Shown piece by piece: positions 33,422 to 64,000 of a DNA stretch of 64,000 nucleotides. Each line of letters opens with the position of its first letter. The first letter of the stretch is position 1. Origin of the DNA: Nymphaea colorata (lineage: Eukaryota; Streptophyta; Magnoliopsida; Nymphaeales; Nymphaeaceae); the NCBI RefSeq assembly GCF_008831285.2, contig NC_045138.2:38245115-38309114 (forward strand). Reading direction: 5' to 3'. The notes under the pieces were generated by a model. That model had not been told where the DNA came from, did no database searches, and was given only the letters and a program-made list of their open reading frames with translations. Made by a program: the position numbers and the translations under genes.

Positions 33422-34826
33422 TTAAATTAAAAATCTCCATCTCATTAAAACAATGAATGAACATATAGATAGAAAAATGCATGCCACGGTGCGGTGAAAG
33501 TCCACGCTCGTTGCCTGTTTCAAGGTCATAAAAAAACAAATAAATTAATCAAGCAGAAACATCAAAATCTTTTGTGCGTGTATGCATGTAGGTAAGTGTA
33601 CAAAACCAAGTTAAGTTTGGCCTAACAAGGGCAATGTTAAAGGGAAAAGAGAAGCATGGACTACTGACCTTGGAGCCATGAGATGCTAAAGAGACAGAGG
33701 TAGATCCAGTTGAGATGTCAGCCAGTCCCACATCATAAACCATGGTGCCATCAGGCTGATAAAGCCCATAATTCCTCTCAGATGTTGGCCCTGGCTTCAT
33801 GTCCTCATTGAACAAGGCAAACAGGTAGACCTCCAGTCTCTGGCTGGGCCTAAGAGGTGTCCCTTCATTCTCAAGCTGCCTCCTCAGCAAGTTCCTGTTG
33901 TAGGACTCAGCATTGTCCATGGTTGCCCCATACTCATCTGGGTCCCCTTTGGAGGGCCACCCTGTCTCAGAAACCCTGACCTCCACCCCCCCAAACCCTA
34001 ACCTAGCCATTGCAATGATCACAGCATCAACCTGTGCATAGAGCATGTTGTCATAGTGCAACCTGGTGTATGGATCCACCATCCCTTCATTGGGCTCAAA
34101 GAGCACATAGCCCAAGGGCACAGTTGTTGGGTTACCCTTATAAGCAAAGAAAGGGTAGGCATTGATCCAAAAGGGTGCACTTGTTTGAACCAAGAACTGC
34201 AACATGGGCTCGATCAGACCGGCAAGGTCCGAGCGGAACGAGCCGGTCGATGGTGGGTAGGAATTTACGAGGACTGCCAGGGAGTTGGAGGTTGACACGT
34301 GTACCGACGAGTCGAGCCCGAGTTGGACTAGTGCACCATAGATGCTGGCCATGGCTGGGACCAAGTTGGTCATGAGTTGTGTGTCATTGCTGGTGAAGAC
34401 CTCATTGCCAATTGAGATGCCACTGATCTTGGTCGCTGGTACGTATGGCTTGATCTGGGTCGTGACCCACTGGAGCGCTTGTTGCGGGTCAACCATTTGG
34501 CTGACGAGCTCGTTGGCGAGCGTCACGGTGAGGTCGATGCCGGAGTTAGCGAAAGCGGTCAACACCTTGGGGTTGGTGTCGTAGATCCTGATTTTGGTGA
34601 CCTTGAGGGACTGCAGGAGAATGACCACCTTGTCTGGTGATGGCAAATTGTCGGCTACTTGTCCATAATTAATCCCCAAAGCTGCACCTTCTTGTAGCAG
34701 TCCAAACTCTGCAAGTGTGTTCCAAAGAAACAAATCAAGAAGACAAACTGTTGATTATGGTGCCCACAAACACACTCAGTTCCAAATAGGCTGTAAGCTA
34801 AGTATCTTCATAATCTGTTTGCAGTA

Positions 34827-42732: not shown

Positions 42733-43053
42733 TTAAGATCTCATCTGCGCCCACGACGCCTGCTCATCCAACGACGGCAGCTCCAGGAGCCACCTGAAGT
42801 CGTCCGCCGTCCAATTCTCCATCTTCACCGGACCAACACCATTGATGCAGTCTTCTTTTGCCCTCATCAATCCTTCCTCATGGAACTCCATTGCTGTCCC
42901 TCTGTTTGCCGCCGGTCTCTTCGTCGAGCTGCCGCTCACCGGCGCATCTTTTCCGGTCAGATTCTGAACGGTTGCCTTGAAATTCTGGGGATCTGTCTGC
43001 ACGAACTCGGTGAGGATGACTCTCACCAGAGGCTTCTTCCCTCTCTTAGCCAT
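42733..43053 (-). CDS. VQ: VQ-motif protein, single exon, complete
   Basis: 106 residues starting MAKRGKKPLVRVILTEFVQTD. The VQ motif FKATVQNLTG is at residues 25-34, matching the family consensus FxxxVQxxTG. The preceding in-frame GTG (43074) is not a start; the ATG at 43053 gives the N-terminus usual for short VQ1/VQ10-like members. No introns, no signal peptide and an acidic C-terminal half. Family role: nuclear or plastid cofactors that bind the C-terminal domain of WRKY factors and tune defence and stress transcription. The coding sequence is GC-rich against AT-rich surroundings. Upstream, the phrase AGGGTAGAGA..TTSATCTCTGA.CGCCGA is duplicated (about 43080 and 43180). Confidence 0.92.
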   Translation of the reverse strand: MAKRGKKPLVRVILTEFVQTDPQNFKATVQNLTGKDAPVSGSSTKRPAANRGTAMEFHEEGLMRAKEDCINGVGPVKMENWTADDFRWLLELPSLDEQASWAQMRS

Positions 43054-45812
43054 GACCGCCAACGCAGAGTGCACGAGCGTAGGGTAGAGACCTTGATCTC
43101 TGATCGCCGACGTCTGCCTGAAAGGAGGGAAGGGAAGAAGTTGATATGGTTCGAATCCGGTGGTAGTGAGTCTTGAAATAGGGTAGAGAGCTTCATCTCT
43201 GAACGCCGATGTTCTCTCTACCCCACTTCCTGAAGGATTGGTTGCTACGCAAAGGCCCTTCCAACTTCAGAATATTTCACTTATGCCATTTCTTTCCTTC
43301 CAGAAAGAACCTGCTCTATATAGAAGGAGCCACCAGATTTGAAGATATTACACGTTTGCCATTCCTGTCCAATACAAACAGGTGATGGCATTATGGCAAT
43401 CTCAACTTTTTTCCCAACAAAAAAAACTGCCTAATCTGTTTACATCAAATTAAACCGATTATTAGAAAAATAAAAGAGAATAATAAATCTAACTTTGAGA
43501 ATTTGGTAATACGTTATTCGGTCTTGAGAAAGGGAGTGGCATCTCAGCAGTTTATTTAGGAGATATTGGGCATAAAAGAAATTTTACGCAGCGAGTTATT
43601 GACTGCTGACCATCGTTTTGGTCAAACTTTTAGGGTCTTCTGTTGAGCAGCAAGTTTGACCGAAGGGGGACAAAGAAGTGCTGCCCGAGCCTGACCTGGC
43701 CAGCCGGGCCCATATTCGATCCGGTCAAACAAACAATTCTCAAGTCTCCAAGCGCTTCAACGGAGTTTGCATCTCAGACCCAGCGCTCAACATCGTCAAT
43801 TTCTCTTTCTCCTTCATTAAAAGTCCTGTAGCAGCAAAAAAAAATTCGAAATTTTAAAAAATTTCCGGTTCGATCAAACACGGATTTTTTTTCGGAGCCG
43901 TTAAAACATGTTTCCACCGCGAGGGGTGGAAACATATTTCCGTTTTTTTTTTTTCACGGGCTCGCGTCTTCCTCCTGCAGCTGCTTCATCGTGCGGCTGC
44001 TTCATCGTTACCTGCTGTTGCTTCATCGTGCGTGGTCTCTTCTGGAAACATTTATCCTCGGCGTTGTGGAACTGCCAGAGCGGGACGGAGCTTGATGACC
44101 CCCTTCGGTTTAAAACTCGGCGTTGTGGCACTGTGCATCCTGTTTCTGTATCTGCAACTCTTCTTAGGAAAACGACCGAGTGAGTGAGACCCGTCATCAT
44201 CTTTCTCCGTCCCTCTGTTATTTTCTGTATTCCGCTTCTTTTTGTTGGCAGAAAAAAGCGTGTCCTGTTTTTCTTTCCATATCTGCATTGTTTTTAGCTC
44301 TGGTTTGATCAATAATTTATAAGAAAAGGAAAAAATTATTCCTTTTTTCTTTCGCTCTTTTCTTTTTGGTTTCCTATTTGTGGCTTAGTGTCATCTTGCA
44401 TTATTGAGGTCATATCCCATCTCTGTTTCTGGCATTCCTGTTCCCGTCTCGATTGATTAACGAGTGCCCAGCTCAGTATTTTTCTTTTGTGGTTGATGTT
44501 GTTGTTTTTGTTGTTGTAGTGTTGATTATTCTAGGAACTGGAGTTTCCTAATTTATAAAAGTATATTGGGCAAAAAGTGTCGCCTGCCTTGCGTTTTCGC
44601 CTGCATCTCAGTCGATTTAAGGAGCACCCGCTTTGGGTTTTTTGCATTTTCTGCCTTATACCATCATTTTAGGAGTTGGGTTTGCGGAACCCATCATGAA
44701 TAGGTTTCGTTGAAGGGATGCTTGTTGAGGTACAGGTGGGGAGAGAGAGTTCACAGTTATGATCAAAGAGATATTGTTTATGGGTTTGTTATTGTTTAGT
44801 CTTCTCTTTTTGGTTTTTTGGCAATACAGAGAAATCAGTTTCTGGAATTCTGGGGCTAGGGCGTACATGTTTAGAAGGAAACACTACTTAAGGACATTGG
44901 TTGACAACTGCTTCTGTTTACGGCTATCTGCGTTTAGTTGCCTTCATTCTTCTTCCCCTGTAAGGAAACCAGAAACCCTCTTCGTTGGTCTCCCTTGTAT
45001 AACTTGAAGAATATGATATGTGATATGCAGTTGTGGCTGTCTACCTTCAGAATTGGTAAGTTAAATGCTTGATGTCATATGGACCCTTTCTTTCTTCTTG
45101 CATGTTTTCTGTTTTCATTTCCAATGAAGGTTGCTGGGAGATAGCTCCCACCTTTTCATTCCATATGAATTTATTTGCATCATAAAATGGGGATGCTGCT
45201 GAGCATCAGAAACCAGGAACAGAATTCCCCAAAACAACTATATGGATGAACAGCATCACCAACATGACATGCGACACAACACAATATATCCTAATCAACC
45301 CAAGCAATCTGTTAAGAAGCGTCATGTCGGCTAAGTCTCTTCTATCCCCAACTTCAGCTCTCTCCAACAGTGGCACTACTGTCTTCATAGTCCATTGACC
45401 CATAAAGTCATGGAAAAATCGTTATAGTAATTGTGACCTTTTGCAGGAAAGTTTTTCAAACTGTTTAATCCATGCAAGCTGAACATTAACACGATTAAGC
45501 ATGACCTAAATCTATTAGGTTTCATATGGACGTGTTGTGCATTTTCTGTTTTTGTTTTTTATTATACTTTAACAGAATGCAATTTTTTTTATTTGTGGTG
45601 TCTGTGCTCTTACTGAGTGTGTATAACAGTGTCTCTGGGATTTTTTTGAAGATATACATGTACCAAATGATGCTCTTCCACAGCCATCTAAATTGTACGG
45701 ACCAATTGCTCTTATGATCTCCTTTATCTACTGAAAGAATCAATGTAGTCCTTGTAATACTCTTAATCTGCTTTTCATCTGTGATGCACTTTTCTGCATT
45801 TTTATGTTGCAG
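43054..45812. other. Region between VQ gene and RPC8 fragment
   Basis: 43054-43300 is the VQ promoter and leader. A repeat block at about 43850-44000 (TTTCCGG, ATCAAACA, a T-run, then CGCGTCTTCCTCCTGCAGCT) resembles 47130-47350. An exon-like + frame at 45190-45399 ends in a stop but has no known domain. Otherwise nothing is seen. Confidence 0.4.
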
Positions 45813-46063
45813 GAATGATGATGGCTTGTGGGTTTGGGCTTTGGAAGTTGATGGTGAGACAGTAGATCTGGTACTGCAACCAGGTGAAGAGGTCAGGTTG
45901 TCAGTGCTATCATTAAAATTCAGCCACATTCATCTAGGTGTATGACTCATTACTTTGCTTCATATTTTCAGGTACGTTTTCGTGTTACTGGTGTGAAATA
46001 TATCCTCCCATCCCAATTGAGCAGGAAACAGCCACAAAACCATTTTCTCCTATGCTGATCACT
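45813..46063 (+). pseudogene. Fragment of RNA polymerase III subunit RPC8 (Rpb7/RPC25-like), two exons, frameshifted
   Basis: Exon a, 45813-45891, follows a TTGCAG acceptor and precedes GTCAGG; it reads NDDGLWVWALEVDGETVDL and ends GEE. Exon b, 45972-46063, follows TTTTCAG and ends before GTAAGT; it reads VRFRVTGVKY and then, after two extra bases, PPIPIEQETATKPFSPM. The in-frame reading after those two bases reaches a stop within about 20 codons. The YPPIP-EQ...PF-PM signature is that of the C-terminal OB part of RPC8. The upstream SHS2 exons and the downstream exon are absent. Splice sites and an intron are kept, so it came from genomic DNA, not a reverse transcript. Confidence 0.65.
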
Positions 46064-48099
46064 GTAAGTTTATATTTACTCTTATGAGCAGTATATTAGA
46101 GGATTTATCTGTGATCAATGCTTGAATTTCTTGTGGTATATCAAGCATTGCAAGCTTTTGTCTACAGATATCAATGGTTCATATGTAATCTAGATTGAGC
46201 ATGAACCCACATTCAAGTAGTCGGAGCCGTAATTGGATTTGGTTTGTGCTGATTGTAATTGGATTAACGCTGGAGCACCAGACACTAAGAGTGGTTGAGG
46301 TGCGGACCAGCTAAGTAGACTTGGATTCAGATTTACTCCAATAACACTTGAAATAATAAAATAAAAAATTTATAATGTCTCCATTGATATCTTAAGGACT
46401 GAAATTTTAGCTCTTCAAGAGTGTATGCATCTTTTTCATAAATGACATACATTCATCTCTAGAGTTGAATGTTGAGATTAGATGAAATAATTTCATAGGA
46501 TTTTCATTACTATTTAATTATATTATTGAGAATTAATAGTTGTAATAAAAATATTTATATGATAATGATGTATGAAATCACGACTAGAATGTGATCTTTT
46601 CACAAAATAACATTCACCTAAAGTTGCTATGCAAACAGTGGTCATATCGAATCCCATGCTTCGAAGTTTGTCATTCAACATAATTCATTTACTATTGTAA
46701 TTTATATTCATTAATTTGTTTCATGAATGATGAGTCACACAGCTCTTATTATTCCTTCCTTCCTGCCACCTTGTACACCAAATTGACCCGCCAGGCCGTC
46801 GGTCCATTGATTAAAAATTTAAAAAATAAAAATAGTTAAATAAAACTTCAAAATATATTTAAAAGTCATTAAAAGTCTCACCAATATACAAGATGGGCAG
46901 TTGGGTTCGCACTTCTGACTCTAATCACCAAATATTTTAAAATATATTTTTTAAAAATTTAAATGGATATAATAATTCATTTAAATAAACAAAGTTTATA
47001 AATCATACACAAAATCAAATATAAGAAAACACTTCTCAACCGTTATTTATTATGTTAGGAGGGCTTTCCTTTTTTCCCGCCGAATTCCCTTTAGGTAGCG
47101 TTTGATGCATTGGAAATGTACTATTCAACCGGAAAATTAATTCAAATTTTTTAAAAAAATTCCTTCCCATCAAACAAGGGAAGGAAAAAATAGCCGTTGA
47201 ACCCATTTCCGGCTATTTTTTTTCAGAAACTTTTTTCCGCCTGAGAGACGGAAAAAAATTTCTTCAAATATTTTTCAGCCCGTTGGGCTTCTCGGCGCGT
47301 CTCTCTCCTCGTCTTCCTCTTCTCATCCTTCGCAGCTGCCTCACCCTGCTCATCCTCTGCACCCTCACCCTCACCCTCACCCTCTCACTCTCTCACTGGA
47401 AACCCTCGCTCGAAACCCTTGCGTCTTTTTTTCACCCAACCTGCCTTCATGAAGCCTTTCCCCTTCTCTCCCTGCTGCTACCTCAGACGCATCTGTCCCC
47501 TTCTCTCCCTACTGCTACCTCAGATGCATCCGTCCCCAACACAGCCTTCAGACCAGGGGCTTGATTTGGGCATCTCCTCAGCAGCGCAGTGTATAACAGG
47601 GGTGAAAGGTATGTCTCTCTCTCAATCTCTTCCTCTGCCGTTTTCTCACCGTCCATTGCAGCCTATGTTTATGCATTCCTTTGTAGGTTTTGAAGTGTGA
47701 ATCTCCTGATCACTTGTTGATGCATCCTGATCAATTGTTGATGCATCCTGGAATCCTGTTACAATTGATTGGAGAACGATATTTTGGTTCTAATTTTGAA
47801 AAACCCTTTCATGACAGTTCATGATATTTGTGTTCCTCGTTCCCCTATTTACTGTTAGTTGCTTCCCTTTTTACTGTTAGTCGTTTCCCTTTTATGCTTG
47901 CTTGTAGTCATTCCTTGTTGGAGCAGACACCAAGTATGATATATCTTAACCCATCACATAGCTAGGTTCCACTCAGGCCTTAGAGAAAAGTTACAGAGTG
48001 GCATTTGGTTGTTTTAGATCAATTCTCTCACACACACTCTCTATCTCCCCTTGTTCCTGTCATCCTATTTTGGGTTTTTCGGTCCAAACGTGAGCTTCT
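46064..48099. other. AT-rich intergenic with repeat block
   Basis: 46300-47100 is very AT-rich. GTAGCGTTTGATG at about 47095 and CCATCAAACAAGG near 47165 form an imperfect inverted pair like MULE or MITE ends. 47283-47640 is CT-rich and gives open frames of low-complexity Leu/Ser/Pro that I do not treat as genes. Confidence 0.4.
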
Positions 48100-48540
48100 A
48101 TGAACTTTCATTTTTCAAATGGGGAGTTTTTAAGGGGAAATGGTATTCCTAAGGAAACCTTTCAGGAGCCCTCTCTGTGTCCCTCTGACCACCATTATGG
48201 TGGAGTCTCCAGCGAAACTGACGATAAGCTCCCCTATTTTGAGGCAGTAACCGGCAACCAAAGATGCAAGATTCTGTGGAGTATATAAGTTTTTCAAGGC
48301 TGATTAAAATCTTTACTGTAGATTGTTCTTAAATCCTCTGACATTTATAGGGTGTTAGAGTCCATCCTACTTGAAGAGCAGACATCCGGAGATGTGGAAT
48401 TGTAGGCCCAAATTGTTGAGCTCGTCTGTGATGCCAAGTTAACATTTTCACCCAAAACTGACCCCAACTCTCTGTTTGACAGGTCTCAACGCACCCGATA
48501 CCTTTCATGGTTCACCTCTTAAGAAAGCTATTAACCTGGA
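48100..48540 (+). pseudogene. Unidentified coding remnant (two exon-like blocks)
   Basis: 48100-48285 is open (NFHFSNGEFLRGNGIPKE... to CKILW). After a short AT-rich gap with an ATAG acceptor, 48352-48480 reads RVLESILLEEQTSGDVEL, a TAG, then AQIVELVCDAKLTFSP. The composition is protein-like, but a stop and a non-matching donor break it. I do not recognise the family. It may be another captured fragment. Confidence 0.35.
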
Positions 48541-49733
48541 AATTTGTAGTGTGAGATATATATATATATATATGAGCTTCTCTGAAAATTTTTAATTTGG
48601 GTCTATTTTCAGGTTCTTTCTCATATATGTGTGTGTATGTTTGTGTGAGTGAGAGAAGGAGAGAGTTAACGTAAGCAGCTAAGTCTGCTGCATGGTGATA
48701 AGCATGAGGCATGTTTGGACCTTACCTGCTATACTCCCCAAATAGGTGAATGTTTGTTCCAGTGACATACTGAAATATGAAAAAGGAACAAGTTGTTGGC
48801 TCACCTCTTGCAGACAATTATTCCGGTTATTGCAGTAACTTATTACGGTGCAGCAGACTTAGCTGAAAATAGACCCAAATGGAACAAACATTGAAAACAG
48901 CTTATTCTAAATTTTCTAGTATATAAATTCTTGCTGCTGTCTGTAATCTGTATGTGAAAATGTCTCTGATTTTTCTCTTAACGGTGTGCAAGTGTTTAGC
49001 GGCCCTACACTGTTTTGTGTGCGGCCATTGAGTTATTAAGCTTTCAAAAGAGAGCTGCTCATACTGTATGTCTTGAATTGCTTTGATAGCCAAGTGCTCG
49101 AAGGTTATGTTGCACTCAAAAGAACTGTGTGGTTCTTAATTCTCTAATTTTAGAGTTTTTAGGTTGTTCAATGCTGACAAGTTATTTGTCGTTCATTATC
49201 TCTTTTGTCTTATTAATGTTACTCACTAATTGAAGAACATAATGGAAGGAAACTCGTTTTGTCCTCCTTCCTTTGTGAATTTTTTTCTCATTAAAAATGA
49301 ATTGTCCATGATGCTTTACACTAACATTTTAGAGACTTTACAGTTTACAGGCCTTTAGTTTTTCAACTACATATTTTATTAAGTAAATTGTGACCAAATC
49401 TAAGATGTGATTGACAAAATAATTGATGAATGTGAAATAAGAGGCATTGGGTCATTGTTCTTTGTCGATGTGCACGTTCTTTTGGTTCCTACTTTATCTG
49501 GAAATATGTTTCTTATATCAAACTCAGAAATATATTTTTGGAAATCTGGAAATGTCTTTCTTTTTCATCAAACACAGAAATATATTTCTGGAAATATATT
49601 TCTGAGTCATCACACACACACCAAAATTGGAATTGGAAAGATTTTTCTCATTCCATTTTTCTATTTCCTATATTTCCAGAAATATATTTCCAGACCATCA
49701 AACAGAGGAGGCTGGATCCTCGACGGTGCGACG

Positions 49734-49823
49734 ATGGAGGAGGATGCAGATTGCGTAGGTGGGTTGCTGCAATTCATCCTTCCAAATTACGAGCAGCAGC
49801 TCCTATCCATCATCCTTCCGCTG
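49734..49823 (+). other. Possible first exon of a captured or chimeric transcript
   Basis: ATG in a good context, 30 codons (MEEDADCVGGLLQFILPNY...), then CTG|GTAAGT. It lies 320 bp before a kinesin exon. There is no family match that I can name. Upstream, 49500-49700 is a field of ATATTTCTGGAAAT inverted and direct repeats. Confidence 0.3.
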
Positions 49824-50145
49824 GTAAGTTTCCTTCCTCCTCCCTCTCTCTTTCAGCTTTTCTGCGCTCTCATTAGGGCTTGAGAAAAATTTTGACCCAC
49901 AAGACCAATGCAGGTCGATCGCTATGATCATTGCTTGGAAGGGAAGTGGGCATCTAAAAGGTCGAGAGACAGAGTAGCGAAGTGGAGAATAGTTCGATCT
50001 GCCTCGTCCCTCGCTCGTGGATCCATCGATTCGGATTTCACTATTTAGTGATCAATCGATCGGTCCGTCTCCTTCGCTTTCGGTAAACTCCTTTTGCGCT
50101 CCCGTACTGCAGTGTTCTTCTCTTCTCTGCGGTTCCCTCTTACAG

Positions 50146-50275
50146 TGCAAAAACGCTGAACTGGGCTCTTGGTCTGACTGTGCAGATCACGTATTCGACG
50201 AGACTTGCACGAACTTGCGCGTTTATGAGCGTCACACGAAGGATGTCATCCAAGCGGCAGTCAAGGGATTCAATG
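50146..50275 (+). pseudogene. Kinesin-7 motor-domain exon fragment
   Basis: After a CTCTTACAG acceptor the frame reads SWSDCADHVFDETCTNLRVY, then ERHTKDVIQAAVKGFNG. This matches the part of the KIN-7/CENP-E-like motor just before the P-loop (FAYGQTSSGKT). The block stops at AATG|GTACC, where the P-loop exon should join, and the next bases do not continue the motor. No P-loop or switch exons are nearby. It is therefore one isolated exon with its splice sites. Confidence 0.65.
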
Positions 50276-50493
50276 GTACCCCTTCAGATTAGTTTTTGTT
50301 CTTTTAGTATTTTGAAGGATTGGACGATTCTTAAGTAAATAGATGCCTTCATTGCTCTTATTCCATATCATATAGTTGTTTGTTACCTGTACATCTACAT
50401 CCTACTTTTGTAGGATAGTTTGCCTTTAAATTGTTTAATATACATGAAAAATTAATTTGCTGACATCCTCTGAGCCAGTATGTTGACAAATAA

Positions 50494-50759
50494 TTTGGAA
50501 CTGGACTGCTAACGATAAGCCCTGTACATGATCATATTGATTATGTTCTTGCAAGAAAACTGGGCATCCCAATACTTAATGTCATTAACAAGGATGGAAT
50601 TGAACTTACGGATGCCTGAGTCTCCTACTTTGTGATTTCAGTGGACTTGATCTGTTTAAAGCTTTCAACAAATTGTGGGCAGATTTCGAAGTGGCTGGTC
50701 TTGATGTGAAGAAGGAATCATCTACATCAAGAGTACCAAGATCACAGTGTGGTGGGGAG
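50494..50759 (+). pseudogene. Valyl-tRNA synthetase fragment, two exons
   Basis: Block 1, 50494-50616, reads FGTGLLTISPVHDHIDYVLA, then RKLGIPILNVINKDG, and meets a TGA. Block 2, 50642-50759, follows a GATTTCAG acceptor and reads GLDLFKAFNKLWADF, then VKKESSTSRVPRSQCGGE before GTCAGG. Both match consecutive parts of the editing-domain region of plant organellar-type ValRS (family: FGTG..KISPxHDxxDY, ...RVPRSQRGGE). The spacer is a 25-bp remnant of an intron. No other ValRS exons are present. The Arg to Cys change in RSQCGGE also argues against function. Confidence 0.7.
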
Positions 50760-51973
50760 GTCAGGAAATTTTCCTCTATATATCATAACATAATTGGTTT
50801 TTTGCAAAACAGTTTAATCAAATTAAATGGAGCACTTATATATAATAGGTCATAGTTCGTCGGTAAGCAGTGGTTTGTAGTCATGGGGCCTTAGTGCACT
50901 GGAAAAGGGGGATATATCTATCATTCCTGAGAGGTTTGAAAAGGTACACATGCTACATGAGTTTTTTTTTCCAAAGTGAAGTAATATTCTATAATAGGTT
51001 GCTGAAGGTCCTTCACATTTATCCTGTATCTATTCTATGCTTTGTTTGGAGAACCATGTTGTCATTCATCTGACTGATGATCATCTTGGACTGCCTCCTT
51101 TTATTTGAAAATGTTTTGTGTAGTTGTAGCTTGTTTGTTGCTGATCTAGCAGTTATCTCTATTCCGTGCTTGAAAATACTGTTGACTGTTGTAAAATTCT
51201 GTACTGCTTCTTATTGCCATCCATATGACAATATTTTTACATCCATAGCATCCATAGCTTCTGTTGTATAGGCAACTTATAACAGCTCTTCATAAATGGC
51301 TTTTTTAGTTTTCAAATATATTACTCAGCTGTAACGTTTGTTGCCTTTATGAATATCCTTCTATCATCAGCATTCATATTGATGTTCTTGTTTTGTATTT
51401 TAGATATTTCCTTTTCATTGAAGATAAGGCAGAACACGAGTAAGAAATCCTTGGGTAATGTTTGAATTACTATATGGAGATGCATAAAGAGTCTTTGAAA
51501 CAAGATTTTGCCATAGGTAAAATGAACCAATATGGAAAAACTATAACCAATTATGTAAAAGAAGAGGGGGGACTGGGGAGTAATCCCCTGAGATGTGGGA
51601 ACTACTCAAGGATCTTATGTGGCAATGTCCCCACAATCAAAATCCAAAATAGTAGTTGGTGCAATATTTTTATGATATGTTAACTCGTAAGCATAGACAA
51701 ATGGTAGATGCAGCATCTGGGGGGTACATTCATGATGACAAGCAATGAAGAAGCATCAACTTTGTTTGAGACTTAATAACAATTGTACACATCCTGCCTC
51801 ATCATCTATGCAAGAGAGAGCGCCATGGATGTCTTTGGGAGCACTCAATGAGGAATATGTGAGGTATCATCATTCCGTTATTGGTGCAAAAGGATGGATA
51901 AAATTAGAGATTAGTTGGAGCAAATATTGACACTCATTCGAACAGTGAATGAGACATACTCATGCGGAAACTC
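50760..51973. other. Spacer between exon fragments and satellite array
   Basis: AT-rich; nothing coding is recognised. A box-A-like phrase TTAGTGCACTGG occurs near 50892. The region ends abruptly at the first satellite monomer. Confidence 0.4.
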
Positions 51974-52228
51974 AGTGTGAGACAAAACTATTGACAATGA
52001 AAAAAACTAGGGTAGGAAAGATATAATGAACCCCGTACAACAACAAGAGGGGAAGCAGTTCCGTAAGACATGCGAACTGCATATGGATATTGTTGAGGCA
52101 ACGTCTCCACAATCAAGTTGAAAATGTCAATTACACGCTTTTAAAATAAATAGTGAATTGAAGATATAGCCGACGCATGGCCAACTAAATGCATCGGCAT
52201 AATGATCCGTTTTAGGAGGTTATGTGTG

Positions 52229-55200
52229 AGACAAAAGCATTGACTCTGAAAAAACTGGGGTAGGAAATATGCGATGAACCCTATACATCAAAAGGGGAAG
52301 CAGTACCATGAGACATGGGAATTGCATATGGATCTTGATGAGGCTACGTCCCTACTATCAAGTTCAAAATGTCAATCAAATGCACTGCAAATAAATGGCT
52401 GACTGAAAAAATGGTCGATGCATGGCAAATTAGATGCATCAACATAAAGGTCAGTTTTAGAAGGTCATGTGTGAGACAAAAGTATTGATTATGAAAAACC
52501 TAGACTATGAAAGATGCGATGAACCCCGTACAACAAAAGGGGAAGCAGTCTCGTAAGACATGCGAACTGCATATGGATATTGATGAGGCAACGTCCCTAC
52601 CATCAAGTTCAAAATGTCAATCACATGCATTTGAAATAAATGGCGGACTGAAGACATAGCCGATGCATGGCCAACTAGATGCATCGACATAATGGTATGT
52701 TTTAGGATGTTATATGTGAGACAAAAGTATTGTCTATGAAAATACCATGGTAGGAAAGATACGATGAACCCCGTACAACAAGAGGGGAAGTAGTTTCGTA
52801 AGACATGCGAACTGCATATGAATATTGTTGAGGCAACGTCTCCACAATCAAGTTAAAAATGTCAATTACACACATTTGAAATAAATGGTGAATTTGAAGA
52901 TATAGCCAATGCATGGCCAACTAGATGCATCGACATAATGATACGTTTTAGGAGATTATGTGTGAGACAAAAGCATTGACTCTGAAAAAACTGGGGTAGG
53001 AAAGATGCGATGAACCTATACATCGAAAGGGGAAGCAGTACCATGAGAGATGGGAACTGCGTATGGATCTTGATGAGGCTACGTCCCTACTATCAAGTTC
53101 AAAATGTCAATCAAATGCACTGCAAATAAATGGCTGACTGAAGACATGGTCGATGCATGGCAAATTAGATGCATAAAGGTCAGTTTTAGAAGGTCATGTG
53201 TGAGACAAAAGTATTGACTATGAAAAACCTAGAGTATGAAAGATACGATGAACCCCGTACAACAAAAGGGGAAGCAGTCCCGTAAGGCATGCGAACTGCA
53301 TATGGATATTGATGAAGTAACGTCCCTACCATCAAGTTCAAAATGTCAATCACATGCATTTTAAATAAATGGCGGACTGAAGACATAACCGATGCATGGC
53401 CAACTAGCTGCATCAACATAATGGTATGTTTTAGGAGGTTATATGAGAGCCAAAAGTATTGTTTATGAAAATACAATGATAGGAAAGATACAATGAACCC
53501 CATACAACAAGTGGTGAAGCAGTTCCGTAAGACATGCGAACTGCATATGGATATTGTTGAGGCAACGTCTCGACAACCAAGTTAAAAATGTCAATTATAT
53601 GCATTTGAAATAAATGGTGAATTGAAGATATAGCCGACGCATGGCCAACTAGATGCATCAGCATAATGATTCGTTTTAGGAGGTTATGTGTGAGACAAAA
53701 GCATTGACTGTGAAAAAACTGGGGTACGAAAGATGCGATGAACCCTATACATCGAAAGGGGAAGCAGTACCATGAGACATGGGAACTGCATATGGATCTT
53801 GATGAGGCTACGTCCCTACTATCAAGTTCAAAATATCAATAAGTTGCACTACAAATAAATGGCTGACTGAAGACATGGTCGATGCATGGCAAATTAGATG
53901 CATCAGCATAATGGTCAGTCTTAGAAGGTCATGTGTGAGACAAAAGTATTGACTATGAAAAACTTAGAGTATGAAAGTTACGACGAACCCCGTACAACAA
54001 AAGGGGAAGCAGTCCCGTAAGACATGCGAACTGCATATGGATATTGATGAGGCAACGTCCCTACCATCAAGTTCAAAATTTCAATTATACGCATTTGAAA
54101 TAAATGGTGAATTGAAGATATAGCCGACGCATGGCCAACTAGATGCATCAGCATAATGACTCGTTTTTGGAGGTTATGTGTGAGACAAAAGCATTGACTC
54201 TGAAAAAACTGGGGTATGAAAGATGCGATGAACCCTATACATCGAAAGGGGAAGCAGTACCATGAGACATGGGAACTGCATATGGATCTTGATGAGGCTA
54301 CGTCCCTACTATCAAGTTCAAAATATCAATAAGTTGCACTACAAATAAATGGCTGACTGAAGACATGGTCGATGCATGGCAAATTAGATGCATCAACATA
54401 ATGGTCAGTCTTAGAAGGTCATGTGTGTGACAAAAGTATTGACTATGAAAAACTTAGAGTATGAAAGTTACGACGAACCCCGTACAACAAAAGGGGAAGC
54501 AGTCCCGTAAGACATGCGAACTGCATATGGATATTGACGAGGCAACGTCCCTACCATCAAGTTCAAAATGTCAATCACATGCATTTGAAATAAATGGCAA
54601 ACTGAAGGCATAGCCGATGCATGGCCAACTAGATGCATCGACATAATGGTATGTTTTAGGATGTTATATGTAAGACAAAAGTATTGTCTATGAAAATGCC
54701 ATGGTAGGAAAGATACGATGAACCCCGTACAACAAGAGGGGAAGCAGTTCCGTAAGACATGCGAACTGCATATGGATATTGTTGAGGCAACGTCTCCACA
54801 ATCAAGTTAAAAATGTCAATTACGCGCATTTGAAATAAATGGTGAATTGAAGATATAGACGATGCATGGCCAACTAGATGCATCGACATAATGATCCGTT
54901 TTAGGAGGTTATGTGTGAGAGAAAAGCATCGACTCTGAAAAAACTGGGGTAGGAAAGATGCGATGAACCCTATACATCGAAAGAGGAAGCAGTACCATGA
55001 GATATGGGAGCTGCATATGGATCTTGATGAGGCTACGTCCATACTATCAAGTTCATAATGTCAATCAAATGCACTGCAAATAAATGGCTTACTGAAGTCA
55101 TGGTCGATGCATGGCTAATTAGATGCATCAGCATAATGGTCAGTTTTAGAAGGTCATGTGTGAGACAAAAGTATTGACTATGAAAAACCTAGAGTGTGAA

Positions 55201-56999
55201 AGTTACGACAAACCCCGCACAACAAAAGGGGAAGCAGTCCCGTCAGACATGCGAACTACATATGGATATTGATGTGGCAACGTCCCTACCATCAAGTTCA
55301 AAATGTCAATCACATGCATTTGAAATAAATGGCGGACTGAAGACATAGCCGATGCGTGACCAACTAGATGCATCAACATAATGGTATTTTAGGATGTTAT
55401 ATGTGAGACAAAAGTATTGTCTATGAAAATACTATGGTAGGAAAGATACGATGAACCCCGTACAACAACAGGGGAAGCAGTTTCGTAAGACACGCGAACT
55501 GCATATGGATATTGTTGAGGCAACGTCTCCACAATCAAGTTAAAAATGTCAATTACACGCTTTTGAAATAAATGGTGAATGAAGATATAGCCGATGCATG
55601 GCCAACTAGATGCATCGGCATAATGATCCGTTTTAGGAGGTTATGTATGAGACAAAAGCATTGACTCTGAAAAAACTGGGGTAGGAAAGATGCGATGAAC
55701 CCCATATATCGAAAGGGGAAGCAGTATCATGAGACATGGGAACTGCATATGGATCTTGATGAGGCTACGTCCCTACTATCAAGTTCAAAATGTCAATCTA
55801 ATGCACTGCAAATAAATGGCCGACTGAAGACATAGTCGATGCATGGCAAATTAGATGCATCAGCATAATGGTTAGTATTAGAAGGTCATGTGTGAGACAA
55901 AAGCATTGACTTTGAAAAAACTGGGGTACGAAAGATGCGATGAACCCTATACATCGAAAGGGGAGGCAGTACGATGAGACATGGGAACTGCATATGGATA
56001 TTGATGAGGCAACGTCCCTACCATCAAGTTGAAAATGTCAATCAGATGCATGGTCAACTAGATGATCGACATAATGGTATGTTTTAGGATGTTATATGTG
56101 AGACAAAAGTATTGTCTATGAAAATACTATGGTAGGAAAGATACGATGAAACCCGTACAACAAGAGGGGAAGCAGTTTCGTAAGACATGCGAACTGCAGA
56201 TGGATATTGTTGAGGCAACGTCTCCACAATCAAGTTAAAAATGTCAATTACAGGCTTTTGAAATAAATAGTAAATTGAAGATATGGCCGATGCATGGCTA
56301 ACTAGATGCATCGGCATAATGATCCGTTTTAGGAGGTTATGTTGTGAGACAAAAGCATTGACTCTGAAAAAACTGGGGTAGGAAAGATGCGATGAACCCT
56401 GTACATCGAAAGGGGAAGAAGTCTCATGAGACATGGGAACTGCATATGGATCTTGATGAGGCTACGTCCCTACTATCAAGTTCAAAATGTCAATCAAATG
56501 CACTGCAAATAAATGGCAGACTGAAGACGTGGTAGATGCATGGCAAATTAGATGCATCAGCATAATGGTCAGTTTTGGAGGGACATGTGTGTAACAAAAG
56601 TATTGACTATGAAAAACCTAGATTGTGAAAGATACGATGAACCCCGTACAACAAAAGGGGAAGCAGTCCCGTAAGACATGCGAACTGCATATGGATATTG
56701 ATAAGGCAACGTCCCTACCATCAAGTTCAAAATCTCAATCAAGTGAGACAAAAGTTTTAGGATGTTATATGTGAGACAAAAGTATTGTCTATGAAAATAC
56801 CATGGTAGGAAAGATACGATGAACCCCGTACAACAAGAGGCGTAGCAGTTCCGTAAGACATGTGAACTGCATATGGATATTGATGAGGGAACGTCCATAC
56901 CATCAAGTTCAAAATCTCAATCACATGCATTTGAAATAAATGGCGAACTGAAGACATAGCCGATGCATGGCCAACTAGATGCATCGACATAATAGCAAT
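52229..56999. repeat. Left part of array: mainly 3-monomer (B-C-A) higher-order period, about 735 bp, more diverged
   Basis: B-class starts fall near 52229, 52965 and 53697 (3 x 245 apart), then after a 2-monomer step near 54184, then again at 3-monomer steps. Class C monomers are frequent here and absent from the right half except as a trace at the very end. Small indels and truncated monomers near 56040 and 56750 show decay. Confidence 0.8.
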
Positions 57000-57470
57000 G
57001 TTTTAGGATGTGTATGAAAGATACGATGAACCCCGTACAACAAGAGGGGAAGCAGTTCTGTAAGACATGCGAACTGCATATGGATATTGTTGAGGCAACG
57101 TCTCCACAATCAAGTGAAAAATGTCAATTACACGCCTTTGAAATAAATGGTGAATTGAAGATATAGCCGATGCATGGCCAACTAGATTCATCGGCATAAT
57201 GATCCGTTTTAGGAGGTTATGTGTGAGACAAAAGCTTTGACTCTGAAAAAACTGGGGTAGGAAAGACGTGATGAACCCTATACATCGAAAGGGGAAGCAG
57301 TACCTTGAGACATGGGAACTTCTTATGGATCTTGATGAGGCAACGTCCCTACCATCAAGTTCAAAATGTCAATCACATGTATTTTAAATAAATGGCAGAC
57401 TGAAGACATAGCCGATGCATGGCCAACTAGATGCATCGACATAATGGCATGTTTTAGGATGTTATATGTG

Positions 57471-58653
57471 AGACAAAAGTATTGTCTATAAAAATACCAT
57501 GGTAGGAAAGATTCAATGAACCCCGTACAACAAGAGGGGAAACAGTTCCATAAGACATACGAATTGCATATTGATATTGTTGAGGCAACGTCTCCACAAT
57601 CACGTTAAAAATGTCAATTACACGCCTTTGAAATAAATGGTGAATTGAAGATATAGCCGATGCATGGCCAACTAGATGCATCGGCATAATGATCCGTTTT
57701 AGGAGGTTATGTATGAGACAAAAGCATTGACTCTGAAAAAACTGGGGTAGGAAAGATGTGATGAACCCTATACATCGAAAGGGGAAGCAGTACCTTGAGA
57801 CATGGGAACTGCATATGGATCTTGATGAGGCAACGTCCCTACCATCAAGTTCAAAATGTCAATCACATGTATTTTAAATAAATGGTAGACTGAAGACATA
57901 GCCGATGCATGGCCAACTAGATGCATCGACATAATGGCATGTTTTAGGATGTTATATGTGAGACAAAAGTATTGTCTATGAAAATACCATGGTAGGAAAG
58001 ATACGATGAACCCCGTACAACAAGAGGGGTAGCAGTTCCGTAAGACATGTGAACTGCATATGGATATTGAAGAGGCAACGTCCATACCATGAAGTTCAAA
58101 ATCCCAATCACATGCATTTGAAATAAATGGCGAACTGAAGACATAGCCGATGCATGGCCAACTAGATGCATCGACATAATGGCAATGTTTTAGGATGTGT
58201 ATGAAAGATACGATGAACCCCGTACAACAAGAGGGGAAGCAGTTCTGTAAGACATGCGAACTGCATATGGATATTGTTGAGGCAACGTCACCACAATCAA
58301 GTAAAAAATGTCAATTACACGCCTTTGAAATAAATGGTGAATTGATGACATAGCCGATGCATGGCCAACTAGATTCGTCGGCATAATGATCCGTTTTAGG
58401 AGGTTATGTGTGAGACAAAATCATTGACTCTAAAAAAACTGGGGTAGGAAAGATGTGATGAACCCTATACATCGAAAGGGGAAGCAGTACCTTGAGACAT
58501 GGGAACTGCATATGGATCTTGATGAGGCAACGTCCCTACCATCAAATTCAAAATGTCAATCACATGTATTTTAAATAAATGGCAGAAGACATAGCCGATG
58601 CATGGCCAACTAGATGCATCGACATAATGGCATGTTTTAGGATGTTATATGTG
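57471..58653. repeat. HOR unit 1 (A-B-A-Ashort-B), 1183 bp
   Basis: Monomer landmarks at 57471, 57716, 57961, the short A near 58190, and 58413. The short A lacks about 38 bp covering AGACAAAAG...CATGG. A 4-bp deletion (GGCAGAAGAC) shortens the last monomer. Confidence 0.85.
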
Positions 58654-59880
58654 AGACAAAAGTATTGTCTATGAAAATACCATGGTAGGAAAGATACGAT
58701 GAACCCCGTACAACAAGAGGGGAAACGGTTCCGTAAGACATACGAACTGCATATGGATATTGTTGAGGCAACGTCTCTACAATCACGTTAAAAATGTCAA
58801 TTACACGCCTTTGAAATAAATGGTGAATTGAAGATATAGCCGATGCATGGCCAACTAGATGCATCGGCATAATGATCCGTTTTAGGAGGTTATGTGTGAG
58901 ACAAAAGCATTGACTCTGAAAAAACTGGGGTAGGAAAGATGTGATGAACCCTATACATCGAAAGGGGAAGCAGTACCTTGAGACATGGGAACTGCATATG
59001 GATCTTGATGAGGCAACGTCCCTACCATCAAGTTTAAAATGTCAATCACATGTATTTTAAATAAATGGCAGACTGAAGACATAGCCGATGCATGGCCAAC
59101 TAGATGCATCGACATAATGGCATGTTTTAGGATGTTATATGTGAGACAAAAGTATTGTCTATGAAAATACCATGGTAGGAAAGATACGATGAACCCGGTA
59201 CAACAAGAGGGGTAGCAGTTCCGTAAGACATGTGAACTGCATATGTATATTGATGAGGCAACGTCCATACCATCAAGTTCAAAATCTCAATCACATGCAT
59301 TTGAAATAAATGGCGAACAGAAGACATAGCCGATGCATGGCCAACTAGATGCATCGACATAATAGCAATGTTTTTGGATGTTATATGTGAGACAAAAGTA
59401 TTGTCTATGAAAAATACTATGGTAGGAAAGATACGATGAACCTCGTACAACAAGAGGGGAAGCAGTTCTGTAAGACATGCGATCTGCATATGGATATTGT
59501 TGAGGCAACGTCTCCACAATCAAGTGAAAAATGTCAATTACACGCCTTTGAAATAAATGGTGAATTGAAGATATAGCCGATGCATGGCCAACTAGATTCA
59601 TCGGCATAATGATCCGTTTTAGGAGGTTATGTGTGAGACAAAAGCATTGACTCTGAAAAAACTGGGGTAGGAAAGATGTGATGAACCCTATACATCGAAA
59701 GGGGAAGCAGTACCTTGAGACATGGGAACTGCATATGGATCTTGATGAGGCAACGTCCCTACCATCAAGTTCAAAATGTCAATCACAGGTATTTTAAATA
59801 AATGGCAGACTGAAGACATAGCCGATGCATGGCCAACTAGATGCATCGACATAATGGCATGTTTTAGGATGTTATATGTG
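58654..59880. repeat. HOR unit 2 (A-B-A-A-B), 1227 bp
   Basis: Landmarks at 58654, 58899, 59144, 59390 and 59636. The fourth monomer is full length, unlike units 1, 4 and 5. Confidence 0.87.
59086..59111. repeat. Representative dyad within the satellite monomer
   Basis: CGATGCAT, a 10-bp spacer GGCCAACTAG, then ATGCATCG: perfect 8-bp arms. In class B monomers followed by CGGC the arms extend to 10 bp (GCCGATGCAT). The same dyad recurs in most monomers at the same place. Confidence 0.9.
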
Positions 59881-61597
59881 AGACAAAAGTATTGTCTATG
59901 AAAATACCATGGTAGGAAAGATACGATGAACCCCGTACAACAAGAGGGGAAACAGTTCCGTAAGACATACGAACTGCATATGGATATTGTTGAGGCAACG
60001 TCTCTACAATCATGTTAAAAATGTCAATTACACGCCTTTGAAATAAATGGTGAATTGAAGATATAGCCGATGCATGGCCAACTAGATGCATCGGCATAAT
60101 GATCCGTTTTAGGAGGTTATGTGTGAGACAAAAGCATTGACTCTGAAAAAACTGGGGTAGGAAAGATGTGATGAACCCTATACATCGAAAGGGGAAGCAG
60201 TACCTTGAGACATGGGAACTGCATATGGATCTTGATGAGGCAACGTCCCTACCATCAAGTTCAAAATGTCAATCACAGGTATTTTAAATAAATGGCAGAC
60301 TGAAGACATAGCCGATGCATGGCCAACTAGATGCATCGACATAATGGCATGTTTTAGGATGTTATATGTGAGACAAAAGTATTGTCTATGAAAATACCAT
60401 GGTAGGAAAGATACGATGAACCCCATACAACAAGAGGGGAAACAGTTCCGTAAGACATACGAACTGCATATGGATATTGATGAGGCAACGTCCATACCAT
60501 CAAGTTCAAAATGTCAATTACACGCCTTTGAAATAAATGGCGAACTGAAGACATAGCCGATGCATGGCCAACTAGATGCATCGGCATAATGATCCGTTTT
60601 AGGAGGTTATGTGTGAGACAAAAGCATTGACTCTGAAAAAACTGGGGTAGGAAAGATGTGATGAACCCTATACATCGAAAGGGGAAGCAGTACCTTGAGA
60701 CATGGGAACTGCGTATGGATCTTGATGAGGCAACGTCCCTACCATCAAGTTTAAAATGTCAATCACATGTATTTTAAATAAATGGCAGACTGAAGACATA
60801 GCCGATGCATGGCCAACTAGATGCATCGACATAATGGCATGTTTTAGGATGTTATATGTGAGACAAAAGTATTGTCTATGAAAATACCATGGTAGGAAAG
60901 ATACGATGAACCCGGTACAACAAGAGGGGTAGCAGTTCCGTAAGACATGTGAACTGCATATGGATATTGATGAGGCAACGTCCATACCATCAAGTTCAAA
61001 ATCTCAATCACTTGCATTTGAAATAAATGGCGAACTGAAGACATAGCCGATGCATGGCCAACTAGATGCATCGACATAATAGCAATGTTTTTGGATGTAA
61101 TATGTGAGACAAAAGTATTGTCTATGAAAAATACTATGGTAGGAAAGATACGATGAACCTCGTACAACAAGAGGGGAAGCAGTTCTGTAAGACATGCGAA
61201 CTGCATATGGATATTGTTGAGGCAACGTCTCCACAATCAAGTGAAAAATGTCAATTACACGCCTTTGAAATAAATGGTGAATTGAAGATATAGCCGATGC
61301 ATGGCCAACTAGATTCATCGGCATAATGATCCGTTTTAGGAGGTTATGTGTCAGACAAAAGCATTGACTCTGAAAAAACTGGGGTAGGAAAGATGTGATG
61401 AACCCTATACATCGAAAGGGGAAGCAGTACCTTGAGACATGGGAACTGCATATGGATCTTGATGAGGCAACGTCCCTACCATCAAGTTCAAAATGTCAAT
61501 CACAGGTATTTTAAATAAATGGCAGACTGAAGACATAGCCGATGCATGGCCAACTAGATGCATCGACATAATGGCATGTTTTAGGATGTTATATGTG
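59881..61597. repeat. HOR unit 3, seven monomers (A-B-A-B-A-A-B), 1717 bp
   Basis: This equals the 5-monomer unit plus one extra A-B pair, as expected from unequal exchange within the array. The A monomer at 60370-60600 is a visible A/B hybrid. Confidence 0.85.
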
Positions 61598-62784
61598 AGA
61601 CAAAAGTATTGTCTATGAAAATACCATGGTAGGAATGATACGATGAACCCCGTACAACAAGAGGGGAAACAGTTCCGTAAGACATACGAACTGCATATGG
61701 ATATTGTTGAGGCAACGTCTCCACAATCACGTTAAAAATGTCAATTACACGCCTTTGAAATAAATGGTGAATTGAAGATATAGCCGATGCATGGCCAACT
61801 AGATGCATCGGCATAATGATCCGTTTTAAGTGGTTATGTGTGAGACAAAAGCATTGACTCTGAAAAAACTGGAGTAGGAAAGATGTGATGAACCCTATAC
61901 ATCGAAAGGGAAAGCAGTACCATGAGACATGGGAACTGCATATGGATCTTGATGAGGCTACGTCCCTACTATCAAGTTCAAAATGTCAATCACATGTGTT
62001 TTAAATAAATGGCAGAGTGAAGACATAGCCGATGCATGGCCAACTAGATGCGTCGACATAATGGCATGTTTTAGGATGTTATATGTGAGACAAAAGTATT
62101 GTCTATGAAAATACCTTGGTAGGAAAGATACGATGAACCCCGTACAACAAGAGGGGTAGCAGTTCCGTAAGACATGTGAACTGCATATGGATATTGATGA
62201 GGCAACGTTCATGCCATCAAGTTCAAAATCCCAATCACATGCATTTGAAATAAATGGCAAACTGAAGACATAGCCGATGCATGGCCAACTAGATGCATCG
62301 ACATAATAGCAATGTTTTAGGATGTGTATGAAAGATACGATGAACCCCGTACAACAAGAGGGGAAGCAGTTCTGTAAGACATGCGAACTGCATATGGATA
62401 TTGTTGAGGCAACGTCACCACAATCAAGTAAAAAATGTCAATTACACGCCTTTGAAATAAATGGTGAATTGATGATATAGCCGATGCATGGCCAACTAGA
62501 TTCGTCGGCATAATGATCCGTTTTAGGAGGTTATGTGTGAGACAAAATCATTGACTCTGAAAAAACTGGGGTAGGAAAGATGTGATGAACCCTATACATC
62601 GAAAGGGGAAGCAGTACCTTGAGACATGGGAACTGCATATGGATCTTGATGAGGCAACGTCCCTACCATCAAGTTCAAAATGTCAATCACATGTATTTTA
62701 AATAAATGGCAGACTGAAGACATAGCCGATGCATGGCCAACTAGATGCATCGACATAATGGCATGTTTTATGATGTTATATGTG
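61598..62784. repeat. HOR unit 4 (A-B-A-Ashort-B), 1187 bp
   Basis: Carries the same 38-bp deletion in its fourth monomer (near 62318) as units 1 and 5, including the flanking GATGTGTATGAAAGATACG junction. Confidence 0.86.
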
Positions 62785-63972
62785 AGGCAAAAGTATTGTT
62801 TATGAAAATACCATGGTAGGAAAGATACGATGAACCCCGTACAACAAGAGGGGAAACAGTTCCGTAAGACATACGAATTGCATATGGATATTGTTGAGGC
62901 AACGTCTCCACAATCACGTTAAAAATGTCAATTCCACGCCTTTGAAATAAGTGGTGAATTGAAGAAATAGCCGATGCATGGCCAACTAGATGCATCGGGA
63001 TAATGATCCGTTTTAAGAGGTTATGTGTGAGACAAAAGCATGGACTCTGAAAAAATTGGGGAAGGAAAGATGTGATGAACCCTATACATCGAAACGGAAA
63101 GCAGTACCATGAGACATGGGAACTGCATATGCATCTTGATGAGGCTACGTCCCTACTATCAAGTTCAAAATGTCAATCACATGTATTTTAAATAAATGGC
63201 AGACTGAAGACATAGCCGATGCATGGCCAACTAGATGCATCGACATAATGGCATGTTTTAGGATGTTATATGTGAGACAAAAGTATTGTCTATGAAAATA
63301 CCATGGTAGGAAAGATACGATGAACCCCGTACAACAAGAGGGGAAACAGTTCCGTAAGACATACGAACTGCATATGGATATTGTTGAGGCAACGTCCATG
63401 CCATCAAGTTCAAAATCTCAATCACATGCATTTGAAATAAATGGCGAACTGAAGACATAGCTGATGCATGGCCAACTAGATGCATCGATATAATAGCAAT
63501 GTTTTAGGATGTGTATGAAAGATACGATGAACCCCGTACAACAAGAGGGGAAGCAGTTCTGTAAGACATGCGAACTGCATATGGATATTGTTGAGGCAAC
63601 GTCACCACAATCAAGTAAAAAATGTCAATTACATGCCTTTGAAATAAATGGTGAATTGAAGATATAGCCGATGCATGGCCAACTAGATTCATCGGCATAA
63701 TGATCCGTTTTAGGAGGTTATGTATGAGACAAAATCATTGACTCTGAAAAAACTGGGGTAGGAAAGATGTGATGAACCCTATACATCGAAAGGGGAAGCA
63801 GTACCTTGAGACATGGGAACTGCATATGGATCTTGATGAGGCTACGTCCCTAGTATCAAGTTCAAAATGTCAATCAAATGCACTGCAAATAAATGGCTGA
63901 CTGAAGACATGGTCGATGCATGGCAAATAGATGCATCAAGATAATGGTTAGTTTTAGAGGGTCATGTGTGAG
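62785..63972. repeat. HOR unit 5 (A-B-A-Ashort-B), last before interruption
   Basis: Short A near 63504. The final monomer changes to a left-type tail (CTGACTGAAGACATGGTCGATG) and stops in mid-phrase at GTGTGAG, where GC-rich sequence begins. Confidence 0.85.
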
Positions 63973-64000
63973 CAGGGTTGGGCGTCGGGCCTGGGCCGGG
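63973..64000 (+). mobile_element. Start of a GC-rich mobile repeat interrupting the satellite
   Basis: CAGGGTTGGGCGTCGGGCCT... begins exactly where the monomer phrase GTGTGAGACAAAAG breaks. CAGGG is a common hAT-type terminus and the GGGCCTGGGCCGGG body matches the family near 21450. The rest lies outside the window. Confidence 0.5.

Follow-up and report, generated by a model that had tools for sequence, protein, structure and literature searches.

A 245-bp satellite with higher-order repeats adjoining a dispersed gene-fragment block in Nymphaea colorata

A 64,000-bp stretch of the Nymphaea colorata genome, referred to here as the window (C1:38245115–38309114 of the 407.8-Mb, 783-contig genome, in which C1, C2, C6 and similar names denote contigs), contains in its last ~12 kb a tandem satellite whose 245-bp monomers follow two successive higher-order repeat (HOR) patterns, the second including chimaeric monomers. 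We consider it probable that the satellite is of low copy number and linked to a dispersed gene-fragment block, and that out-of-register recombination made its HORs separately at different loci. A first-pass annotation of the window had described about 49 monomers in at least three classes set in a regular order, forming true HORs next to gene-derived sequence; that observation is correct, though understated.

Monomer order in the window array

TRF reports a period of 245 starting at position 51975, together with period-490 rows, and anchor scanning followed by cutting yields 50 head-to-tail monomers at 52015–63972, behind a 40-bp partial monomer at 51975–52014 (forward strand; TRF and profile search, profile positions from ~210). 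Monomer length is exactly 245 bp in 36 of the 50 and ranges from 182 to 247 bp in the other 14, and the monomers lie on one strand only, with 50 forward and no reverse matches to the core in the window array. The annotated array is therefore real and its period as described, but the count is 50, and position 63972, taken as its end, marks an insertion. The last monomer, m50 (63758–63972, forward), is by class assignment a B monomer interrupted at that point, and the final 28 bases of the window (63973–64000) are the first of a 1950-bp insertion that starts with CAGGG and contains internal tandem repeats, beyond which the array continues.

Clustering distinguishes three base classes, with consensus identities of 0.824 between A and B, 0.886 between A and C, and 0.853 between B and C. 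To these are added two chimaeric classes, BC, with B-specific bases in the first part of the monomer and C-specific bases in the later part, and AC, in which A-specific bases are followed by C-specific ones. Monomers m1–m20 (52015–56804, forward; a zone delimited by cutting, clustering and permutation) are ordered as A-B-C trimers that are 91.5–95.1% identical; within them m9 is a C/A chimaera replacing one C plus one A, m16 is a B with an A-like end, and m17 is a B/C chimaera. The following 29 monomers, m21–m49 (56805–63757, forward; class painting and permutation), repeat the unit AC-A-BC-A-BC, with one additional pair formed by m36 (mixed) and m37 (BC), and every one of them paints as A, B-then-C or A-then-C, except for the mixed m36 and single sites. 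The AC monomers number six, four of 207 bp (m21, m26, m43 and m48) and two of 247 bp (m31 and m38). There are five complete five-monomer units of 1183–1227 bp, which are 96.7–98.3% identical, and a partial sixth that contains m50 and has 94.2–95.6% identity.

Neither order is attributable to chance arrangement of the same monomers: identity at lag 3 in m1–m20 is 0.909 (permuted mean 0.849) and identity at lag 5 in m21–m50 is 0.956 (permuted mean 0.878), values reached by none of 5000 permutations in either case, and in both zones neighbouring monomers are less similar than under permuted order. In m21–m49 the register-matched identity is 0.974 (17 pairs) as against 0.831 for neighbours. The array thus combines the two properties that define a satellite with HORs, head-to-tail repetition in one orientation over kilobases, and greater similarity between monomers in register than between neighbours.

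Layers and insertions of the full C1 array

Beyond the window the array runs from C1:38297089 to ~38382350, a length of ~84–85 kb including insertions of ~22.6 kb. It gives 258 profile matches, 236 of them near-full monomers, with six gaps of 1.4–5.5 kb each (22.6 kb in total) between the matches, and the 90 kb of C1 covering it contain no N. Its left part is ABC; in the middle stretches the strongest lags include 5, 8, 10, 12, 14, 15 and 17; to the right of these it is mainly ABC again up to ~38373 kb; and the right edge consists of eight degenerate monomers, every one of which forms a separate cluster. The BC class has 47 of its 49 members inside the middle zone, the limits of which were drawn by eye, and the local identity of A monomers is highest in mid-array (0.961), with values of 0.932 at the left end and 0.925–0.947 on the right.

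The insertion at the window end occupies C1:38309087–38311036, and the array picks up again past it. Its CAGGG start had suggested a hAT element, a candidate that we dropped; because the full insert lacks a clear target-site duplication, we call it merely an insertion. A second insert, 79% similar, lies 42 kb further on (C1:38351046–38352412) at the identical site of a B monomer; both are filled with their own tandem repeats in varying number, and they are probably one insertion multiplied along with the array. Another of the array insertions has GCAAC on either side and end repeats that are 81% alike, and yet another has 459-bp end repeats that are 99.6% alike, pointing to elements resembling long terminal repeat (LTR) retrotransposons, of seemingly different ages, within the array. 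At C1:38354462–38371842, ~8.5 kb of array and LTR-like insertion are present twice in tandem, the two copies of the 4.8-kb insertion being 99.96% identical, which reflects either a very recent event or an assembly error.

The gene-fragment block and its copies

The sequence directly to the left of the array is gene-derived, as the first-pass annotation had it. The core of this block (49705–51974, forward) recurs with 89–95% identity in five other copies, at C1:29.45, C1:33.24, C2:1.26 (only up to window position 51538), C6:17.26 and C6:0.06 Mb, and satellite follows each. Within 2.3 kb, ~0.2 kb apart and on the same strand, it holds broken pieces of a kinesin and of a valyl-tRNA synthetase gene. 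The kinesin motor-domain fragment (50182–50280, forward) is short, and its Pfam Kinesin match (E 0.0019) is under the curated cut-off, while each of the 15 solved structures that match it is a kinesin (best E 4.6e-4). The first synthetase fragment (50497–50619, forward; 1wk9, E 4e-4) has a TGA at its end, and its nine structure matches include leucyl- as well as valyl-tRNA synthetases; the second piece of the same broken gene (50625–50759, forward) was recognised by genome search and has no solved-structure match by itself.

When both synthetase pieces are compared with the genome, 26 matches at 15 loci are obtained. A satellite array adjoins the fragment at all ten loci examined, which are on C1, C2 and C6 and 74–98% identical, and at nine of these ten there is one TGA within the first-piece match. 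In the window the array abuts the block directly, and in four other copies 0.9–1.8 kb separate the end of the match from the first monomer piece of appreciable length. On its right side the C1 array has a flank that reappears beside the C1:29.4 and C2 arrays with 89–95% identity over several kilobases, which suggests joint copying of block and array. Near the contig start of C6 (C6:60000–223000), synthetase fragment and array occur together in five copies that resemble one another closely and lie in both orientations.

The arrays at these loci share monomers but not their order. On C2 there is a six-monomer unit of 1447 bp, derived from two stretches 9 kb apart, with register pairs 95.9–99.6% identical as against 84.4% for neighbours (n 12). 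When 96 monomers were compared together, among them 40 of the 228 from the C1 core, the nearest neighbour lies at the same locus for all 40 sampled C1 core monomers, 14 of 14 from C2 and 21 of 23 from C6; it lies at other loci for seven of eight monomers from the C1 right edge, seven of nine from C1:29.4 and both from C1:33.2. This pattern argues for an old monomer pool that is shared, and for higher-order forms that are local.

Two relics in the block may indicate where the repeat unit came from. A diverged monomer relic lies outside the array at 51575–51650 (forward; profile positions 36–111, nhmmer E 1.1e-9), and there is one at the corresponding place in four of the five other copies. It is followed at 51721–51848 (forward) by a relic of a ~205-bp spacer found in old array units, recognised by similarity to other copies: identity is 71–72% at three of the five (E 4e-7 to 2e-11) and 75% within the C1:29.45 copy (E 7.5e-19). 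The same order is seen in the old units of C6, of C1:29.45 and of the right edge of C1, with a truncated ~147-bp monomer and then ~205 bp without a profile match, the whole unit being ~836 bp on C6. We infer that the repeat originated from the flank sequence that these relics represent. When flank and monomers were aligned locally at loose settings, the scores fell inside the shuffle range and were uninformative.

Formation of the array, rival explanations and known systems

The order, chimaeras and layers described above can be accommodated in the following succession of events, which we offer as a proposal. Tandem duplication of flank sequence would have produced a complex unit composed of the ~147-bp truncated monomer, the ~205-bp spacer and whole monomers, and once the spacer was lost, simple 245-bp monomers would have remained. 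Three types of monomer would then have become set as the A-B-C trimer at C1:38.3 Mb, and out-of-register exchange, of B with C as well as of A with C, would have created the chimaeric monomers; a five-monomer unit carrying these may have expanded inside the array, so that ABC layers remained on both sides. The block would have been copied to other sites, where homogenisation would have acted separately on monomers from the common pool and led to the six-monomer unit on C2. A further proposal, that a near-complete series of satellite birth is preserved in one genome and off the main centromere repeat (a single-copy founder next to the gene fragments, spacer units, plain monomers, trimer, five-monomer and longer units, and the separate C2 six-monomer unit), is more tentative, and we hold it at somewhat under even chances.

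Several observations weigh against this scheme. A decayed outlying unit would look like the flank relics; the C2 copy yielded no relic; and extension of the monomer relic to a whole monomer is weak, since 9, 148 and 48 of 3000 control places equal it for A, B and C, respectively. The zone means of class A barely differ (0.931 left, 0.944 middle, and 0.942 right, or 0.939 minus the recent duplication), and class B has no identity gradient across the layers (0.933, 0.932 and 0.924). The genome DNA searches scored 7 of 288, 8 of 120 and 5 of 113 candidates, so that more loci may exist. Five of the 15 synthetase loci (C1:20.15 Mb, two on C12, C336 and C3:16.09 Mb; 71–78%) lie outside the array comparison, and we take these to be synthetase genes; parts of the right flank also occur elsewhere at 81–88% (e.g. 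C1:34.9, C1:35.1 and C3), likewise outside that comparison. The interiors of the C1:29.4 and C2 arrays were sampled over 2 kb each, and the C6:0.06–0.22 Mb copies lie among assembly gaps (in the parts covered, 100-N gaps at C6:69501, 135687 and 183269).

The strongest alternative, although we regard it as somewhat doubtful, is that the block is a gene-capturing transposable element (a Helitron or Pack-MULE), or some other element, and that the array forms a tandem region inside it, much as Ogre 3′ regions seed satellites. It is compatible with the explanation that we favor, to which it would supply the copying vehicle. The copies are dispersed and show a constant order of gene fragments followed by array at all ten loci, and the other copies contain pieces of the 5′ region of the VQ-motif gene described below; we rate the element higher because the kinesin fragment was found, putting pieces of two unrelated genes side by side on one strand. 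However, the left and right flanks compared contain no LTR pair, their similarity being limited to 21 bp of low complexity and to sequence derived from the array, and a limited look revealed no common termini and no target-site duplication. In the block and right flank, the 20 longer open frames scanned against Pfam likewise gave no match to a transposase, a reverse transcriptase or a Ty3/gypsy domain, the only match at E ≤0.01 besides kinesin being VirB3 (0.006, under cut-off), which we take for chance.

The left part of the duplicated region (46154–47089, forward) has 75–83% identity in other copies, and is partly present in a VQ paralogue on C3. Between it and the core is a nested insertion of ~2.6 kb (47090–49704), recognised because the matches on its two sides are separated by no more than tens of bases in the five other copies; the insertion, which those copies lack, has similar GTTTGATG-like sequence in inverted orientation at its ends. 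Further left, 44030–46153 is shared with C2:31514066–31516208 (92%), ends sharply at 46153 and has no match in the four block copies compared. The left junction in the window is a truncation or rearrangement. Position 46153 was rejected as the family start, since three other copies remain similar further left; a terminal inverted repeat based on GATAACGATTATC was rejected for want of a good partner in the right flank compared; and C2:31.51 Mb was rejected as an empty site, its 3.3-kb continuation matching neither flank convincingly and giving some low-complexity matches only. A ~220-bp piece at 46389–46609 has at least 20 dispersed relatives at 70–78% identity, and is probably a small transposon.

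The VQ-motif gene itself (42736–43053, reverse strand) encodes 106 amino acids with no stop (Pfam VQ E 1.3e-8), and is intact; it lies ~9 kb from the array, the distance given in the first-pass annotation. In the genome search its closest other copy is C3:27155655–27155975 (89% amino acid identity), and this paralogue (C3:27.155 Mb) shares the neighbourhood on the left side; the 10 kb compared there contain no synthetase-block match and no monomer. Still further to the left in the window is a gene of glycosyl hydrolase family 17 (33549–34754, reverse strand; Pfam E 4e-81).

The first-pass annotation had left open whether this is a centromere-edge, a knob or a euchromatic satellite. A second alternative is that the array marks the border of a functional centromere or pericentromere, and that its higher-order order is the outcome of centromeric homogenisation. 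This we consider unlikely. In its favor, higher-order and layered arrays are documented at centromeres, plants included, in the cited parts of several studies (PMC4053949, PMC11406182, PMC12046899), and the window array has 47 sites with a GATGCATGGCCAACTAGATGCATC-like dyad, counting those with up to two substitutions. Satellite loci were found, however, on C1, C2 and C6 alone among the candidates scored in the 783-contig genome, and this scarcity together with the intact gene nearby argues against a main centromere satellite, a role that appears unlikely on sequence grounds. There is also no exact CENP-B core in the window array (one has a single mismatch), and in the related N. minuta the tandem repeat named for centromeres, in the part of the report cited, is Cen-42 (PMC13254204). 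The first-pass annotation could name no plant satellite like this monomer, and none emerges in print in the open-licence PMC literature: stretches of the monomer have no matches in open-licence papers, and a 245-bp satellite of plants or water lilies has no relevant counterpart among the matches listed there (a soybean "245 bp" is, in the cited passage, the length of a probe and not a satellite; PMC2330051). A 21-base monomer core has no match in IMG/VR or in GTDB genomes, as expected for a plant.

The array is most likely silenced, recombination-driven repeat DNA beside genes. Among private within-class substitutions, transitions per site are 0.234 at CG, 0.291 at CHG, 0.123 at CHH and 0.05–0.06 at A and T (p 7e-4 for CG and CHG combined versus CHH, with no unmethylated control for comparison). 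An excess at CG and CHG is the pattern expected of methylated plant repeats, and suggests cytosine methylation here, although the array shows no deficit of CpG compared with its flanks (observed/expected 0.71 as against 0.52–0.71). We found no coding product or known functional motif in the array: Rfam gives nothing at the gathering threshold in the window, and we rejected the idea that the long minus-strand frames derive from coding sequence, as no match reached the cut-off when three of them were scanned against Pfam.

Finally, it is highly improbable that collapsed or misplaced reads produced the regular order during assembly, as the near-identical ~8.5-kb duplication in the right part and the C6 copies adjoining 100-N gaps could suggest, given that the longest exact repeat in the window array is 336 bp, complete five-monomer units differ by 1.7–3.3%, the 90 kb of C1 are free of N, and C2 shows the same kind of order built from other monomers.

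If the proposal of a preserved series of satellite birth is correct, higher-order order would be a generic result of recombination among tandem copies for which a centromere is not needed. The origins of HORs, and their possible dependence on a centromere, have mostly been studied in huge arrays with their first steps erased. The C1 array is short enough to assemble, with its presumed founder adjacent, sister arrays elsewhere and chimaeras recording single exchanges, and could serve as a test case.

The satellite is of a kind already known, and it is the number of stages seemingly preserved that appears unusual. As far as the cited portions of the reports extend, the centromere HORs of switchgrass (Panicum virgatum) also combine full monomers with one truncated monomer, and their units of 792 and 1131 bp may be set beside the 1187 bp of a C1 array unit with a 207-bp monomer; but the switchgrass repeat is a candidate centromere repeat with a 175-bp monomer (PMC4053949), whereas the monomer described here is 245 bp, is found at few loci, lies beside genes, and has chimaeras that can be traced to their parent classes. 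The Ogre-derived satellites of Lathyrus sativus resemble it in that short arrays occupy a constant position within a dispersed repeat and have expanded into long arrays at some loci; their vehicle is an LTR retrotransposon with protein domains, in contrast to a gene-fragment block without an LTR pair, and the higher-order peaks of that study belong to another satellite, FabTR-2 (PMC7004042). In human and Papaver centromeres, older layers likewise lie on both sides of newer repeats (PMC11406182, PMC12046899), but those are centromere arrays, while the layers on C1 are contained within ~85 kb that show no sign of a genome-wide centromere repeat.

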